DNA of 64,000 nt from Gammaproteobacteria bacterium (GTDB taxonomy: Bacteria > Pseudomonadota > Gammaproteobacteria > Pseudomonadales > Pseudohongiellaceae). This document shows positions 56,711 through 64,000 of the stretch, piece by piece. The DNA is taken from positions 62,001 through 126,000 of the forward strand of contig JAURLP010000011.1 in assembly GCA_030831165.1 (NCBI GenBank). The letters are read 5' to 3'. The translations under genes were made by a program, and so were the position numbers. The notes below the pieces were generated by a model. The model was given only the letters and a program-made list of their open reading frames with translations, was not told the DNA's origin and searched no databases. The stretch's first letter is position 1; each line of letters begins with the position of its first letter.

Positions 56711-57694
56711 TTAGGATCGATCTCGAGATAGTTCTTCTGTAAGCGCAGCTTCTAGATCCTCTGCCACATCAATAATAAATTCCGGAATGGATTCTTCACT
56801 GGGTGAAAGTCGGATGTCGTAACGCTGCACAATATTATGCATCGTAGGTTGTGTACTAAAATCTGGTTTATCGACAATATCCTGGATTGTTCTAATTCCC
56901 AGCACAGTCCATGCCACGCCTATTCCGACAAAGGCCGCCCTCTTAACGGATGTTGTACTGATTGCTCGTATCTGCCAGGCAAGAATCCATGCAAAAAAGA
57001 TAGCGCTGAAAATTAGAATCAGAAAATCGGCTGCCGACTGGCTGGTAAAAAAATAACTGATCACACTATTTAGCTCTTCCGTTAATATAAATACCAAACA
57101 GGCAAAACTGGCCAGAGACAATTGCAAGAAATAACGCCAACTGTGTAAAAAGACTCTGCTAATAAAACTCATCACTGTGGCGATAGCGATGGGAATAGCA
57201 AAATAAAGCAGGCGATTTACAAGTATTTCTGTCCAGTCATTGTTCAAAGAAAATTTCTGATAAGAAAAATAAAACGTCATCAGCATGTACGCCACAGTTA
57301 AAATTAACGCAAGCCAGATTGTAGAAGCAATTTCTGATAAGCGTGAACTTCGCGCAATAATTAATGTTGGCTCTACCGGAGAATGTGCTGCATGTAAATC
57401 AAGGTGAGTTCTGCCAATGTTAATCGTAGTCGGCACACTCAAGTCATGTAATTCATGCTCCCCTTCTTTGAGCTGTTCTTTGCCAATCCAGGTCCCATTT
57501 TCGTCTGAAATACTTTTAACTTGAAAGCCGTTTTCGCTGGCATGAACTTCCAGATGATGAGCTGAAACCGTTTCGTCAGCGATAATCAAATCATTATCAT
57601 AGGCTCGGCCAATCCGAAAAGGAAAACTATCCGCGCGATGAAAAACCGGTTGACTCCTGCCCCCTTTGGAGACGCGAATTATGAGGGATTCCAT
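56711..57694 (-). CDS. FHA-domain protein with C-terminal membrane helices
   Basis: Residues about 1-100 form a forkhead-associated domain: FPFRIGRAYDNDLIIADETVSAHHLEVHASENGFQVKSISDENGTWIG, with the phosphothreonine-contact Arg of GRAYDND and the SAHH turn. From about 125 to 285 come five or six membrane helices, then a cytosolic tail with acidic character. FHA domains read phosphothreonine or fold as partner modules. The gene overlaps the upstream protease gene by 16 bases, so the two products are coupled. Confidence 0.82.
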   Translation of the reverse strand: MESLIIRVSKGGRSQPVFHRADSFPFRIGRAYDNDLIIADETVSAHHLEVHASENGFQVKSISDENGTWIGKEQLKEGEHELHDLSVPTTINIGRTHLDLHAAHSPVEPTLIIARSSRLSEIASTIWLALILTVAYMLMTFYFSYQKFSLNNDWTEILVNRLLYFAIPIAIATVMSFISRVFLHSWRYFLQLSLASFACLVFILTEELNSVISYFFTSQSAADFLILIFSAIFFAWILAWQIRAISTTSVKRAAFVGIGVAWTVLGIRTIQDIVDKPDFSTQPTMHNIVQRYDIRLSPSEESIPEFIIDVAEDLEAALTEELSRDRS

Positions 57695-58947
57695 TCCAAT
57701 GCTCCTAAAAATTTCTCGAGTACAGCAAGCCCGTTTTCAAGAGAAACGGTAGAAAAATCCATCGTGAAAATAACTCCCTCAGTATCATGACCCACCAAAG
57801 TCATTAGTACCATAAAGTCCGTTAACTCCGGATACTCCAAATAAGGTCGGGCACAAATATTTGCCTTGAAGTCTTGTCCCGACAATAAAATAAAACGGGT
57901 TGAGCATGAAAAGTTTCCTACATCCTCTTCGCTCGGCCTTGATGGGAAGCGGCTACGGCTGCTACGTTGATATATCTGGTAAAACGCTGAAGGCGATAAC
58001 TGCTCAGAATCGAGCCAGTAAAATTCATATGAAAATGCACCTGCGCGTAATTGTTCAGAAAGGTAAATTGAGTCCTGCCCCTGACAAACAGAGGCATTAA
58101 CCGTGTAGCGATTGGTCCCTTCTTCAAACTGGTTATCGCTCCAGCAATCCAAACGATCAAAAACACGCCCTGGCACTGATAACTTACCCAATGAAATATT
58201 TCGCCATTCATTATTTAAAATTTCATCAACCAGAGACTGCTGATTTTCAGAAAGCTGGTTGCTGATGCTTGTCGCCAAATCAGTTTCAGGCCGAAAGTCT
58301 GTTGCTCTGGTTTCAGCCAGCAGTTCAGCAAGGTAAGTGGCTGGTACCAGATATCCAACGGCTTCGCCACTGGTTGCTACATTTATACCAACAACCTGGC
58401 CACTGCGATCAAGCGTCGGACCACCACTCATGCCTGGATTGATATTGCCACTAAATAGAATTTTTTCGTATAGAGAGCTTTCCTGGAGGCCATTATTAGT
58501 ACCGCTTACGATGGCCAGATCCAAGGCCAATGGGTGGCCTAAAGAAAACAAGGAAACCCCGTTTTCTGGCAAATCGCCAATTTGCATTGGCAGCCCCATA
58601 GGCTCATCGGCTTGCAGAATAGCCAGATCATGCACTACATCGACGGCCAATACCCTTAAAGGGCCTCGACGCCCGTCTACACCTTCCCATTCCAGCTGGT
58701 AACGGTCGGGTTCATTAACAACATTTGAAATGACATGGTAATTGGATGCCAGAATATCATTTCTACCAATAACGAAGCCGGTACCTACTGAGGCCTTATT
58801 TTCAACCCCTGGCGTAACAACTTCAACACGGTAGACTGAAGACTCATAGCGCGAATAAAGCTCCTCCGCAACATCCTGTGCGCCAGCAAAATTTGCCAGC
58901 AGTATCATGCTGAAAGCAGCAGTAAATTTTATTAATTTCTTTAGCAT
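57679..58947 (-). CDS. Exported trypsin-like serine protease (S1C-type) with unique C-terminal domain
   Basis: A signal peptide (residues 1-23, NFAGAQD) leads to a chymotrypsin fold with GTGFVIGRNDILASNYHVISNV (catalytic His), VDVVHDLAILQAD (Asp) and LFSGNINPGMSGGPTLDRSGQVVGINVA (Ser in GMSGGP). No PDZ domain follows; residues about 235-422 form another domain with paired Cys residues (LDCWSDNQ, NASVCQGQD, FSCSTRF, NICARPY). So it is not DegP/DegS. It is the first gene of the protease-FHA-hypothetical operon. Confidence 0.82.
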   Translation of the reverse strand: MLKKLIKFTAAFSMILLANFAGAQDVAEELYSRYESSVYRVEVVTPGVENKASVGTGFVIGRNDILASNYHVISNVVNEPDRYQLEWEGVDGRRGPLRVLAVDVVHDLAILQADEPMGLPMQIGDLPENGVSLFSLGHPLALDLAIVSGTNNGLQESSLYEKILFSGNINPGMSGGPTLDRSGQVVGINVATSGEAVGYLVPATYLAELLAETRATDFRPETDLATSISNQLSENQQSLVDEILNNEWRNISLGKLSVPGRVFDRLDCWSDNQFEEGTNRYTVNASVCQGQDSIYLSEQLRAGAFSYEFYWLDSEQLSPSAFYQIYQRSSRSRFPSRPSEEDVGNFSCSTRFILLSGQDFKANICARPYLEYPELTDFMVLMTLVGHDTEGVIFTMDFSTVSLENGLAVLEKFLGALEWNPS

Positions 58948-59154: not shown

Positions 59155-60351
59155 ATGTTAATATCGAGACTTATTTGCCTGCTATTTATCGTTTTTTCGA
59201 CAAATTTAACATTCGCCGCAGACACCCCTCCAGATCCTTTTGCTAATCCGCCACCTCCTGCTTTTGCAGGCCAAACCGGGGCCCCTCAAGCTCAACAAAC
59301 CAATATAAGCATGAATATTATGCTTTCTGGACTACAAGGCTCACGAGCGCTGGTTAGCTTACCAGACAATAATGTTTTAGTGGCAGAAGGCTCAGGTAAT
59401 ATACAGGTTATCCATCCGGATGGATCAGTCACTGGCCCCGTCAGTGGCATGCCGCCCTTGCGTTCCGGGGAAGGCCGTATTCTGATGGACATCACAGCGG
59501 ATGCTAATTTTGCGCAAAACCGTCGCATATTTTTTGCCTACGAGGCAGAAGCCGCAGCGGGGGAAGAAGATCCAATCGAGCAAATAGCAAGTGGCGTCTT
59601 GTCTTCTGATATGACGTACTTTGAGAATATACAAATTCTCGGGAATTATCCTGGCAGACGGTTGGCCTCAACTGCTGACGGCAAGTTATACATTACCACT
59701 ATCGGTTATTTTGAAAGGCGTCCAGAAGTGATGGATTTAACGACCTTTACTGGCAAGGTACTGCGCATCAATGCTGATGGCTCTATCCCGGATGATAATC
59801 CCTATTTGGGTCAGATGAATGTTAGGCCTGAAATATTTGCCATTGGGCACCGTGACCAGGATGGTGTAATGATACACCCTGAAACTAACGAACTTTGGTC
59901 AATTGAGCATGGTCCCATGGGTGGTGACGAGTTGAATATTGTGCGCCCCAGGCAAAATGCTGGCTGGCCCTATATCACCTATGGCAAAAACTACGATGGT
60001 ACAGAAATAGGCCCCAGTGAATGGGATGGTGTTACACAGCCTCTTTACTATTGGTTTCCTTCAATCGCTCCATCTGGTCTGGCAATGGTGCAGACAGATC
60101 TATTTCCTGACTGGCAAGGTAATCTGCTGGTGGGCTCACTTAGCCCGGCTCAGGGCCGTTTCCTTATTCGTCTGATCATGGATGGTGAACGCGTCATAGC
60201 TGAAGAACATTTACTGGTTGATTATGATCGGCGTGTTCGAGATGTAACAGAAACCCCCGATGGCTATATCTACGTTTTAACAGACTCCGAAAATAATTCC
60301 GATGTCGGCAGAGTTTTTCCAGGAGAAGTATTGAAATTAATGCCTCGCTAA
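59155..60351 (+). CDS. Exported PQQ-dependent sugar dehydrogenase-like (Asd/YliI type) beta-propeller
   Basis: A signal peptide (residues 1-22, FAADT), a Pro-rich linker, then a six-bladed propeller of the glucose/sorbosone dehydrogenase family: GSRALVSLPDNNVLVAEGSGNIQVI, LRSGEGRILMDITADANF, TGKVLRINADGSIPDDNPY, FAIGHRDQDGVMIHPETNELWSIEHGPMGGDELNI, the family's most conserved stretch. The YliI-like members use PQQ to oxidise aldoses in the periplasm. No pqq genes are in the window. It lies between the protease/FHA operon and the ExbB-VWA operon. Confidence 0.85.
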   Translation: MLISRLICLLFIVFSTNLTFAADTPPDPFANPPPPAFAGQTGAPQAQQTNISMNIMLSGLQGSRALVSLPDNNVLVAEGSGNIQVIHPDGSVTGPVSGMPPLRSGEGRILMDITADANFAQNRRIFFAYEAEAAAGEEDPIEQIASGVLSSDMTYFENIQILGNYPGRRLASTADGKLYITTIGYFERRPEVMDLTTFTGKVLRINADGSIPDDNPYLGQMNVRPEIFAIGHRDQDGVMIHPETNELWSIEHGPMGGDELNIVRPRQNAGWPYITYGKNYDGTEIGPSEWDGVTQPLYYWFPSIAPSGLAMVQTDLFPDWQGNLLVGSLSPAQGRFLIRLIMDGERVIAEEHLLVDYDRRVRDVTETPDGYIYVLTDSENNSDVGRVFPGEVLKLMPR

Positions 60352-60718: not shown

Positions 60719-60988
60719 ATGACCTGCAAGCAAGCAAGCTTTTTTTTGGCCACACTTTTTACGGCACTTACGCTTAGCCTCCAGGTTTATGCTGCTGAAG
60801 AGCCTGCGGCGGAAACTGAAAATAGTGTTGAGACAAATGCTGACGGTCAAGAAGCGCTTGTCCTCAATCAGGCTGATGGCAATATTGAAAGCGACTCTGA
60901 AGCAGAGCAATCCGAAGGAGATGATGATTTTGTTCCTAGCGCACAAATTTCAGAAGATCTTTCTGTGTCATTTCCCGTTGATATATAA
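60719..60988 (+). CDS. Small exported acidic protein
   Basis: Eighty-nine residues: signal peptide (residues 1-25, ending LQVYAAEEP), then about 60 residues very rich in Glu, Asp, Gln and Asn (AAETENSVETNADGQ, ESDSEAEQSEGDDD), ending DLSVSFPVDI. Probably disordered and periplasmic. No family is recognised. It starts 31 bases ahead of the proton-channel gene and seems to be first in that operon. The role is unknown; a periplasmic partner of the channel is possible. Confidence 0.6.
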   Translation: MTCKQASFFLATLFTALTLSLQVYAAEEPAAETENSVETNADGQEALVLNQADGNIESDSEAEQSEGDDDFVPSAQISEDLSVSFPVDI

Positions 60989-61019
60989 ATTTTTATTTAG
61001 GCTAACTTAAGGATTCGAT

Positions 61020-61835
61020 ATGAAACAACAAGGCCTTGTCTCTGACTTAGTCTATCAGGTCTTTGCACTGATTATTTCGGTAATAATCGTACATGCAATC
61101 TACGTGGCAGTTATCCGTCCAAATGCCGACGCTATTATGGCCCAGCAAGTCCTTTTGCAAGAGGCCGACCCTGACTATATCCAGGAACGCTCTTTGTATG
61201 TTGTCATGAGAGACTACGAGCAAGAAACCTGTATTATTTTGATGCTATGGGCGCTATCCATAATAGGCCTAAAAGTCTGGCGAAACCGCAAAGAAAGCGC
61301 CTTGCTGGAACGCTCCTTGCTAAACCTCGATGAAGGAATCAGTATTTTGCCAGAAGATGCCAGAAACTATGCTCGCCCCATACAGGCCTTGTCTCCGGCA
61401 GAACGGGAATACTTGCTTCCCAGGGCATTGATTTCGGCCTTACAGCGTTTTAATACGACTCGTAGCATTCAGGATGTGTCAAGTGTGGTAAAAGATGTTT
61501 GTAATACTGAGGCGGAACGCCTGGAAAGCGAACTCAGTATTGTTCGCTATATTGCATGGGCCATCCCTTCCATTGGTTTCTTGGGAACAGTCCGCGGTAT
61601 TGGAGAAGCGCTTGGTCAAGCACAAAGTGCGGTGACGGGCGATATACTAGGCGTAACTACAAGCCTCGGTGTCGCGTTTAACTCGACGTTCATTGCTCTG
61701 GTCGTCAGCATTATTATCATGTTCGTTCTCTATCAGCTTCAGCTTTTACAAGACCGCCTGGTTCTAGACACTCAGGATTATTGTGACAACTATCTGATCC
61801 GACACCTTCAAGTGCCGGATCGAGAGCATTACTAA
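61020..61835 (+). CDS. MotA/TolQ/ExbB proton channel family protein
   Basis: A 271-residue membrane protein. Helices at about 12-32 and 72-90 are followed by a cytosolic segment, then the family core: YIAWAIPSIGFLGTVRGIGEAL and VTTSLGVAFNSTFIALVVSIIIMFVLYQLQLL, the paired helices that form the proton path in ExbB, TolQ and MotA. The conserved Thr in FNST is present. In this family a partner carrying a membrane Asp is needed; the VWA protein two genes on fits that. Ribosome site AAGGA before the ATG. Confidence 0.88.
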   Translation: MKQQGLVSDLVYQVFALIISVIIVHAIYVAVIRPNADAIMAQQVLLQEADPDYIQERSLYVVMRDYEQETCIILMLWALSIIGLKVWRNRKESALLERSLLNLDEGISILPEDARNYARPIQALSPAEREYLLPRALISALQRFNTTRSIQDVSSVVKDVCNTEAERLESELSIVRYIAWAIPSIGFLGTVRGIGEALGQAQSAVTGDILGVTTSLGVAFNSTFIALVVSIIIMFVLYQLQLLQDRLVLDTQDYCDNYLIRHLQVPDREHY

Positions 61836-61840
61836 GATCC

Positions 61841-63112
61841 ATGACAACATTAATCGAGCTGCATGATCATAATATTCGTATCAGCTCCCCTCAGGGCCTG
61901 CTGGGAGAGAGTCCTGGTTTTGCCAATACTTTTGAAAAGCCCCCGGTGTATGGTGCCGATGCGCTAAGCCTGACCAGACTTCACCCTCAACAAAGTTTTA
62001 ATCAATTCTGGTTTCAACTCGGCCTTGATCCACTAGCGGGCAAAAACAAACTTTTTCGCCATCAGGCCGATCTTGCATTTGGCCATTTGGAAAGTATTAC
62101 TAAAAAGTTTGAGCTAATTGGAGAAACAGTATTTGCTGTCCCGAGTCACTACTCAGCCAATCAGTTAGCGACCCTGCTAGGCCTTGTTAAACACTGCACC
62201 ATTGATGCGGCTGGATTGGTGGATCTTGCCTTACTTGCCTTGGCCAAATTGCACGAACATCAGCAAGCGTTATTTATGGATGTACAATTACATCAAACCG
62301 TATTAACGCTCGTCACAAAAGAACATGGCGAAATCATCCGTCAAAAAGTTTTACCTATCTCGGGTACCGGTTTGCTTTCACTCTATGATGCCTGGGCTAA
62401 TACCATTACTGATGCTTTTATAAAACAGAGCCGTTTTGATCCATTGCATAATGCGGATACCGAGCAATATATTTACAGCGAATTGGAAGCCTGGCTAAGG
62501 TCTGTCGCTAAGAATAAAGAAATATTAATAGAAATAAACAATAAAGGGACTATCCATCAGGCCAGCCTTACCCTGAATAATTTTGAACAGCGCGCGCAAA
62601 ATATTTTTCAAAAAGTTAGCCAGGAAATCGATAGTATTGGTTCCGCTTTTACGCCTGTTTTTGCACTAGATCGCATATGTTCTTTACCCGGCCTAAAACA
62701 AGCCATGCCTGGCCTTAATCCTGTTTCAGATAATGCAATTACAGAAAACGGCTATCAACATCTGGAACTAATCAAAAGCAGTGGTGAAGCATTAAAACTG
62801 GTTTCAAGGCTGCCGGTTGAAGAAAAAAATACTGCATTTACCAAAAATTCATCGCCTGCAAATACATTTAGACCCACACATTTTGTGTTTAGGCACAAGG
62901 CTTATGCGCTCTCAGATATAAACCTGCCAGAATTTAATTTAGCCAAGCCAATACAGATTAATCTTCAAGGGCAAGACTATTATTTGGATGTTAATCCCGA
63001 AGTTGACCTAGACTTAAATGGCTCAACCCTAACTGAGTCAGAGCTTTTAAAGCTTGGTGATCGTCTAACTGTTAATAAGCACTTCATACTAGAATTCATT
63101 CAGGTGCAGTGA
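61841..63112 (+). CDS. Actin/Hsp70-like-fold cytosolic protein of unknown function
   Basis: Begins TLIELHDHNIRISSPQGLLGESPGFANTF and continues QADLAFGHLESITKKFELIGETVFAVPSHYSANQLATLLGLVKHCTIDAAGLVDLALLAL, a pattern (AVPS...LLG..K.C....GLVD.A..A) like the first lobe of Hsp70/actin-type ATPases. The usual DxGT phosphate loops are weak, so ATP binding is uncertain. The end (residues about 350-423, ending LKLGDRLTVNKHFILEFIQVQ) looks like a small beta domain, possibly FHA-like. It starts 5 bases after the channel gene and shares one base (TGATG) with the VWA gene. Confidence 0.6.
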   Translation: MTTLIELHDHNIRISSPQGLLGESPGFANTFEKPPVYGADALSLTRLHPQQSFNQFWFQLGLDPLAGKNKLFRHQADLAFGHLESITKKFELIGETVFAVPSHYSANQLATLLGLVKHCTIDAAGLVDLALLALAKLHEHQQALFMDVQLHQTVLTLVTKEHGEIIRQKVLPISGTGLLSLYDAWANTITDAFIKQSRFDPLHNADTEQYIYSELEAWLRSVAKNKEILIEINNKGTIHQASLTLNNFEQRAQNIFQKVSQEIDSIGSAFTPVFALDRICSLPGLKQAMPGLNPVSDNAITENGYQHLELIKSSGEALKLVSRLPVEEKNTAFTKNSSPANTFRPTHFVFRHKAYALSDINLPEFNLAKPIQINLQGQDYYLDVNPEVDLDLNGSTLTESELLKLGDRLTVNKHFILEFIQVQ

Positions 63113-64000
63113 TGGCGAAAGATAAGAATAATAAACGTAATTTTAATCCGATGAGCCTTGCATTTTTGGATGTTATGTCTTGTGGTTTTGGCGCTGTCGT
63201 ATTGATTTTTTTAATTTTAGACCACTCCTCCCAAAATGCGACAAACGTTGCTGACCCAAATTTAGCTGCTGAAATAAATTTACTTGAGGAACAGATTCTG
63301 GAAGGCGAGGAAGGCCTGGTAAGAGTCCGCAACACCATCTCTGATGTTGATCTACAAATTGTTGAAGCACAGGGCCTGGCACGATCCATCGAGGAAGAAA
63401 TAGATAACTTTATGGACCGTTTGCTTGATTTAGAGAACAACAATACTTCAGGCCAGGATGAAATCATGCGCTTACAACAACAAATTGCTGAGCTTGAAGC
63501 TGAGTTGGAAAACCTGCGGGAAGCTGAAGACCAGTTCACCGGTAATAATATCCGGCGCTACGTCGGTGATGGCAATCGCCAATACTTGACCGGGATGATA
63601 CTGGGTGGCAACCGTATTTTAATTCTGGTCGATATTTCCAGCAGCATGCTCGACGATACTATTATTAATATCATTCGACGCCGCAACATGTCAGATCAGG
63701 CGAAACTCAATTCCGAAAAATGGCGCAATGTTCAGGAAACCGTCGACTGGCTGACTACACAAATGCCTATACCAAGCCAATATCAGATTTATACTTTTAG
63801 CGAGAACGTGAACAGCCTGATACCCGGATCACAGGGGCGATGGCTGGAAGTCGCTGATGATACGCAATTAAATGAGGCCATCGATAATTTGAATCAGCTT
63901 ATCCCCGATGGAGGCACAAACCTTGCCGGACTATTTCAATCCATTCAGGGCCTGTCTCCGCTACCCGACAATATTTTTCTGATCACTGATGGCTTGCCCA
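63112..64000 (+). CDS. Membrane-anchored VWA-domain protein with ExbD-like helix (cut by window edge)
   Basis: Open to the window end, 296 codons seen. Residues 13-34 (NPMSLAFLDVMSCGFGAVVLIFLIL) form one membrane helix with an Asp (LDV) placed as in ExbD/TolR. Residues about 45-140 are a coiled coil rich in Glu/Leu. A von Willebrand factor A domain begins at about 163: ILILVDISSSML gives the DxSxS part of the metal site, GGTNLAG the Thr and LITDG the last Asp, all intact. The start ATG overlaps the upstream stop. The C-terminus is missing. Confidence 0.85.
   Translation, partial: MAKDKNNKRNFNPMSLAFLDVMSCGFGAVVLIFLILDHSSQNATNVADPNLAAEINLLEEQILEGEEGLVRVRNTISDVDLQIVEAQGLARSIEEEIDNFMDRLLDLENNNTSGQDEIMRLQQQIAELEAELENLREAEDQFTGNNIRRYVGDGNRQYLTGMILGGNRILILVDISSSMLDDTIINIIRRRNMSDQAKLNSEKWRNVQETVDWLTTQMPIPSQYQIYTFSENVNSLIPGSQGRWLEVADDTQLNEAIDNLNQLIPDGGTNLAGLFQSIQGLSPLPDNIFLITDGLP

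Follow-up and report, generated by a model that had tools for sequence, protein, structure and literature searches.

The stretch analyzed here, hereafter the window, comprises 64,000 nucleotides (G000:C34:62001-126000) of a gammaproteobacterial genome of 2.3 Mb in 39 contigs, and it ends in a run of four plus-strand genes. In order, these encode a small exported protein of 89 residues (60719..60988), a 271-residue channel of the TolQ/ExbB/MotA family (61020..61835), a 423-residue protein with an Hsp70/actin fold, here called act (61841..63112), and VWA1, a protein with a von Willebrand factor A (VWA) domain, of which the N-terminal 297 of 367 residues lie in the window (63109..64000, running on to 64212). 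An earlier note on this DNA had described the four genes as tightly packed, and we confirm both their positions and the intergenic gaps: 31 bases, 5 bases, and then -4 or -1 bases for the GTG start (63109) or the ATG start (63112) of VWA1, respectively. The sequence beyond position 64000, which the note had proposed to read, completes VWA1 and continues, 17 bases after it, with a 332-residue heterologous VWA protein, VWA2, followed by lipoproteins of 217 and 226 residues and an M48 protease of 482 residues (segment L002, G000:C34:118001-136000; window position = L002 position + 56000). No ExbD/TolR gene was found at the locus; the source genome has four ExbD genes, all on contigs other than that of the cluster.

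A channel search over 84,980 species genomes yielded 495 relatives, of which the best 80 loci, together with the window's own, were compared (81 loci). The small-protein gene, preceding the channel, is present in 76 of these loci, act in 78, vwa1 in 77, vwa2 in 75, the two lipoprotein genes in 74 and 73, and the M48 gene in 64; the eight-gene order small-channel-act-vwa1-vwa2-lipoprotein-lipoprotein-M48 is identical in 57 of the 81. The grouping of these genes is far beyond chance. Clustering of the remaining neighbors of the 81 loci revealed an upstream, same-strand half, consisting of a variable Ser-rich lipoprotein-like protein (67 loci), a 407-residue lipoprotein (69 loci), a membrane-anchored TPR protein (71 loci), and a protein, also membrane-anchored, that combines four PEGA domains with a formylglycine-generating enzyme (FGE)-sulfatase domain (75 loci), with a second TPR protein further upstream in 55 loci. 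The cluster thereby comprises about 12-13 genes, of which the window genes form one end; the four-gene set of the note is part of a real conserved cluster but was drawn too small, and the cluster has two VWA proteins rather than one. In the window's clade the upstream half has been split off, and the source genome carries its copy on contig C38 (L172:2987-9356, G000:C38), where the genes for the Ser-rich lipoprotein, the 407-residue lipoprotein, the TPR protein, and the PEGA-FGE protein are found. A rearranged order, with act, vwa1, and vwa2 and then the channel, occurs at two loci (L055 and L056, in G235 and G456), and a search of the stretch examined around them did not find the FPVDI peptide described below.

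The channel matches PF01618 at 55.6 bits (cut-off 22.9), and its alignment has a mean column identity of 70% over 15 representatives. Two threonines are invariant: Thr190 (codon 61587..61589, in GTVRGIG), which aligns with Thr148 of E. coli ExbB (GTVWGI), and Thr223 (codon 61686..61688, in NSTF), which aligns with Thr181 of E. coli ExbB (ATAIG). The alignment indicates that both pore threonines of MotA/TolQ/ExbB channels are kept in the 271-residue protein.

VWA1 matches PF13519 at 31.8 bits (cut-off 27). Its transpore helix (FLDVMSCGFGAVVLIFLIL; 63163..63219, assigned by alignment) contains an invariant aspartate, Asp21 (codon 63169..63171), that corresponds to the proton-binding Asp of ExbD/TolR/MotB. 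Its metal ion-dependent adhesion site (MIDAS) is complete, with the DxSxS motif (DISSS, residues 175-179, 63631..63645; D175, S177, and S179 invariant), Thr270 (63916-63918; Thr in most members), and the invariant Asp294 (codon 63988..63990, in LITDGLP); the MIDAS of VWA2 has D159/S161/S163 and D258, with a Ser near the position of the Thr. Homology between the two families extends over most of the protein length (E 5e-24); they share an invariant DxSxS and have in common the helix FLDVMSCGFGA, in which the Asp (D21 in VWA1, D16 in VWA2) and the Cys are invariant in both. The segment between helix and VWA domain matches coiled-coil families only. The ExbD/TolR profile, PF02472, matched neither VWA1 nor VWA2, and Asp16 of VWA2 aligned with the ExbD Asp at a weak score. 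The natural reading of these residues and this topology is that VWA1 and VWA2 would be the B subunits of a 5:2-type motor, and the note's proposal that a VWA protein with an intact MIDAS stands in the place of ExbD/TolR agrees with these results.

The small exported protein has a hydrophobic signal or anchor, an acidic linker, and a C-terminal tail to which its conservation is limited, the pentapeptide FPVDI (60971..60985, with the stop codon directly after). An open reading frame (ORF) ending exactly in [FY]P[VIA]DI-stop is present in 112 loci, with 80 distinct 15-mers and with all three stop codons in use. Because the codons vary and all three stops occur, we conclude from the sequences that selection acts on the peptide end of the small protein. 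Across all loci, 80 of 5,382 ORFs end in this motif, 77 of which belong to the small-protein family and 3 of which are its short counterparts in a distant family. The distant-family form has one hydrophobic segment and about 15 further residues (such as SIQLNSAASFPVDI), and, by eye, an AxA-like site often precedes this end. The peptide is kept with the core genes even where act is absent, and it therefore belongs to the core. As a guess, the tail might serve as a ligand, for example by offering its Asp to a MIDAS, or by strand addition as with the TolB box; a literature search for FPVDI returned unrelated papers only.

The third protein, act, had been described as Hsp70/actin-like. Pfam gave no match for the 423-residue window protein, and an AlphaFold2 model (pLDDT 93.8) has as its best Foldseek matches in the PDB Hsp70 nucleotide-binding domains (E 2e-15, TM ~0.6), which places the modeled fold in the Hsp70/actin superfamily. 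The description thus stands for the fold, but the canonical ATPase motifs are degenerate: the phosphate-loop motifs DxGTT and DxGGGT are absent from act, their places being taken by E-x-N-D, in which Asp9 is invariant, and [DE]-x-Q-L-H-Q. A profile alignment to DnaK by hhalign, which was not significant, set 'AVPG/AVPS' against 'VPAYF' and '[DE]xQLHQ' against 'DLGGG'. With both phosphate loops altered, we rejected a canonical ATPase, and act is likely a pseudo-ATPase or a protein that makes different use of the cleft. Its C-terminal domain looks FHA-like, on a weak profile match to the Ki-67 FHA domain (E 0.006); Pfam recognizes FHA (PF00498) in the C-terminus of 2 of 45 act members, not including the window protein. 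The clearer of the two (1.3e-12) is an act homologue at L107:9801-11159, a locus in which neither the peptide nor the downstream lipoproteins were found. In an order-wide search, act was present in 30 of 146 genomes, and the channel adjoins it in every locus with enough flank. However, many genomes with channel, vwa1, and vwa2, in several lineages, have no act anywhere. We conclude that act is an accessory protein, putatively a regulator, and not part of the core, and the fixed trio of channel, actin-like protein, and VWA protein put forward in the note does not hold.

Among the accessory proteins, the 407-residue lipoprotein, present in both lineages, gave a model of moderate quality (pLDDT 77). 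Its closest structural matches in the PDB are PelC (E 4e-4) and, with partial coverage, TolB (E 2e-3 or weaker); the model suggests a TolB-N/PelC-like domain, a partial resemblance that fits a Tol-like layout. The FGE-type domain of the PEGA-FGE protein matches PF03781 in fold. Formylglycine-generating enzyme has its active-site cysteines near the C-terminus, and the C-terminal motif of the PEGA-FGE protein, RGSSW.H...TeLRlS.RD, holds no conserved Cys; we therefore rejected an active formylglycine enzyme, and the domain is probably a binding module. The M48 protease matches BepA at 134 bits, under the 570-bit equivalog cut-off of that model. For the 217-residue lipoprotein, membership in the CsgG family was considered and rejected, and neither for it nor for the 226-residue lipoprotein did Pfam or the PDB yield a meaningful match. 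The 226-residue lipoprotein (L002:10042-10722, window 66042-66722) carries the highly conserved motifs FEPRTAP and GGGGCFGFG and a C-terminal Cys.

The closest named relative is an uncultured Pseudomonadales metagenome-assembled genome, with a channel identity of 97%. Of 369 Gammaproteobacteria genomes sampled, 31 (~8%) carry the channel subfamily, and cultured Microbulbifer species are among its carriers. In a sample of 398 genomes from the phylum, vwa1 was present in 15, and 12 of these belong to a single family outside the class. This distant family retains the core order lipoprotein-TPR-PEGA/FGE-peptide-channel-vwa1-vwa2. No VWA2 homologue was found on 72,556 plasmids or 50,697 phages. The divergence of all parts of the cluster is correlated (r 0.87-0.98), as expected for a jointly inherited unit.

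The earlier note had held that ExbD/TolR/MotB are the sole partners of channels in this family and that the set was undescribed. The former is contradicted, and the latter is in part contradicted, by a 2025 study (PMC12204202; Mol Biol Evol 2025, Fig. 4c,d), which describes vWA homologs tethered by a transmembrane helix and tightly linked to tolQ homologs without tolR/exbD. The vWA genes there occur mostly in heterologous pairs, AlphaFold 3 models show a transpore helix Asp together with a Thr ring, and the channel and vWA pair are predicted to form a 5:2-type force transducer in Proteobacteria. The window cluster likewise has a tolQ-like gene, two heterologous vWA genes, and no tolR/exbD, and the conserved Asp of the vWA N-terminal helix is also present here; matched by description, its arrangement is the same as that of the published system, which includes Idiomarina genes. 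The text of the paper names no Hsp70-like protein, FPVDI peptide, PEGA-FGE protein, lipoproteins, or M48 protease, and no TPR protein for the second family; the main text contains neither Hsp70 nor DnaK nor M48, and 'actin' twice, at least once as part of 'Actinobacteria'. A literature search for the wider cluster found nothing beyond this paper. The motor core was thus already predicted in 2025, and the accessory set and FPVDI peptide are apparently undescribed in the open literature searched.

Comparison with Tol-Pal (TolQRA-TolB-Pal-CpoB) shows a similar layout, with a channel of the same superfamily, TPR and TolB-N-like periplasmic partners, and outer-membrane lipoproteins in one cluster; unlike Tol-Pal, no TolR, TolA, TolB propeller, or Pal was recognized, and the VWA pair stands in TolR's stead. 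A second kind of TolQ-like/VWA cluster, of phospho-signaling flavor, is found at L153:2122-6750 and L155:5078-11446 (FHA-channel-PP2C-VWA-trypsin/FHA). These sister clusters likewise join a TolQ-like channel to a VWA protein with a membrane helix, but their accessory proteins differ, their helix reads ALDLFAS in place of FLDVMSCGFGA, and their channel is only ~30% identical.

We conclude that the cluster probably encodes a trans-envelope machine that is driven by protons and belongs to the TolQR/ExbBD/MotAB superfamily, with two heterologous VWA proteins in place of ExbD/TolR. This conclusion draws on the conservation of the cluster in 81 loci; the invariance of Thr190/Thr223, the transpore Asp, and DxSxS; the absence of ExbD at the locus; the VWA1-VWA2 homology; the retention of the core in the distant family; the Hsp70 fold of act; the TolB-N/PelC-like domain; the correlated divergence; and the independent proposal of the same motor core, with AlphaFold 3 models, in PMC12204202. 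Some points weigh against it. Aligned as profiles, the VWA N-termini and ExbD/TolR give no significant score, so that motif and topology are the basis of the Asp correspondence. The resemblance to TolB extends over part of the lipoprotein model only (TM to full query ~0.2), and common descent contributes to the correlated distances as much as interaction does. In such a machine, five channel copies would enclose the two N-terminal VWA helices, one from VWA1 and one from VWA2, and protons moving past the helix Asp and the ring of pore Thr residues would rotate or shift the VWA pair. The moving pair would displace the periplasmic coiled coils and VWA domains, with the MIDAS exposed, and the VWA heads may grip and release co-encoded envelope partners: the FPVDI-tailed exported protein, the inner-membrane-anchored TPR and PEGA-FGE proteins, and the outer-membrane lipoproteins, one of them TolB-N/PelC-like. 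The cytoplasmic act protein, with its Hsp70 fold and FHA-like domain, would be a lineage-specific regulator or adaptor rather than an ATPase, and the M48 lipoprotein may perform quality control of the outer-membrane parts. For the cellular role we favor outer-membrane-directed force or transport, which may serve outer-membrane maintenance or transport; the adhesive role that the note had suggested for the VWA module finds no support in this analysis. A more specific version, which we put forward tentatively and with clearly less confidence, is a separate Tol-like motor of about 12-13 genes in which the proton-driven VWA heterodimer acts on the exported peptide, the Asp or free carboxylate of FPVDI binds to a VWA MIDAS or to another partner, and the pseudo-Hsp70/FHA-like protein gates the motor from the cytoplasm.

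The FHA-like domain of act could also point to signaling, in which case the channel-VWA unit would be a gated ion conduit and sensor rather than a force motor: a ligand bound at the MIDAS would let protons or sodium through, and in the cytoplasm the Hsp70/FHA-like protein would read the state, possibly under phospho-control. The sister clusters, which add an FHA protein, a PP2C phosphatase, and trypsin-FHA proteins to a TolQ-like channel and a VWA protein, make up just such a signaling set. Yet Pfam recognizes the FHA-like domain in few act members, act is absent from several lineages, and the many outer-membrane lipoproteins suggest a mechanical or transport task at that membrane; we regard a sensor as unlikely. 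Slightly less probable again is a motor that powers an outer-membrane assembly or export line handling lipoproteins, exopolysaccharide, or outer-membrane proteins; PelC as the best fold match of the 407-residue lipoprotein, the protease with its BepA match of 134 bits, short of the equivalog cut-off, and the other two lipoproteins are consistent with it, but the families recurrent in the cluster include no outer-membrane barrel, synthase, or transporter.

Zorya (ZorAB) likewise pairs a channel of this superfamily with a divergent B subunit, and the channel has a weak match to ZorA (18.1 bits). An anti-phage defense system of Zorya type is nonetheless very improbable: scanning of four proteins gave no match to ZorB, ZorC, or ZorD, the latter two being absent here, and the cluster is syntenic, chromosomal, and co-inherited, with VWA2 missing from the plasmids and phages searched. 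That the genes are chance neighbors with separate housekeeping functions is less credible still; the split of the cluster over two contigs in the window's own clade would accord with it, against which stand the conserved order in 57 of the 81 loci and the retention of the core order by the distant family.

Two further features lie upstream of the cluster. Divergent from it, at 56711-58947 on the minus strand, are overlapping genes for an FHA-plus-transmembrane protein and a trypsin-like serine protease, domain types that are the same as in the sister channel-VWA clusters; we considered the pair as part of the cluster and rejected it, since the adjacency is kept in 4-5 close relatives only. Directly upstream, at 59155-60351 on the plus strand, lies a gene for a 398-residue exported protein, by eye a propeller of sorbosone/glucose-dehydrogenase type, that is kept in close relatives only.

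If the proton-driven trans-envelope machine proposed here is correct, marine and other Gammaproteobacteria own another proton-powered envelope machine besides Tol and Ton, with a full set of partners linked by synteny, and the 2025 prediction, which had the motor core only, would be extended accordingly. The helix Asp, the pore Thr, the MIDAS, and the FPVDI tail would then be defined parts for mutational tests of how motors perform work at the outer membrane, and the presence of the channel in cultured Microbulbifer species makes the system open to such testing.

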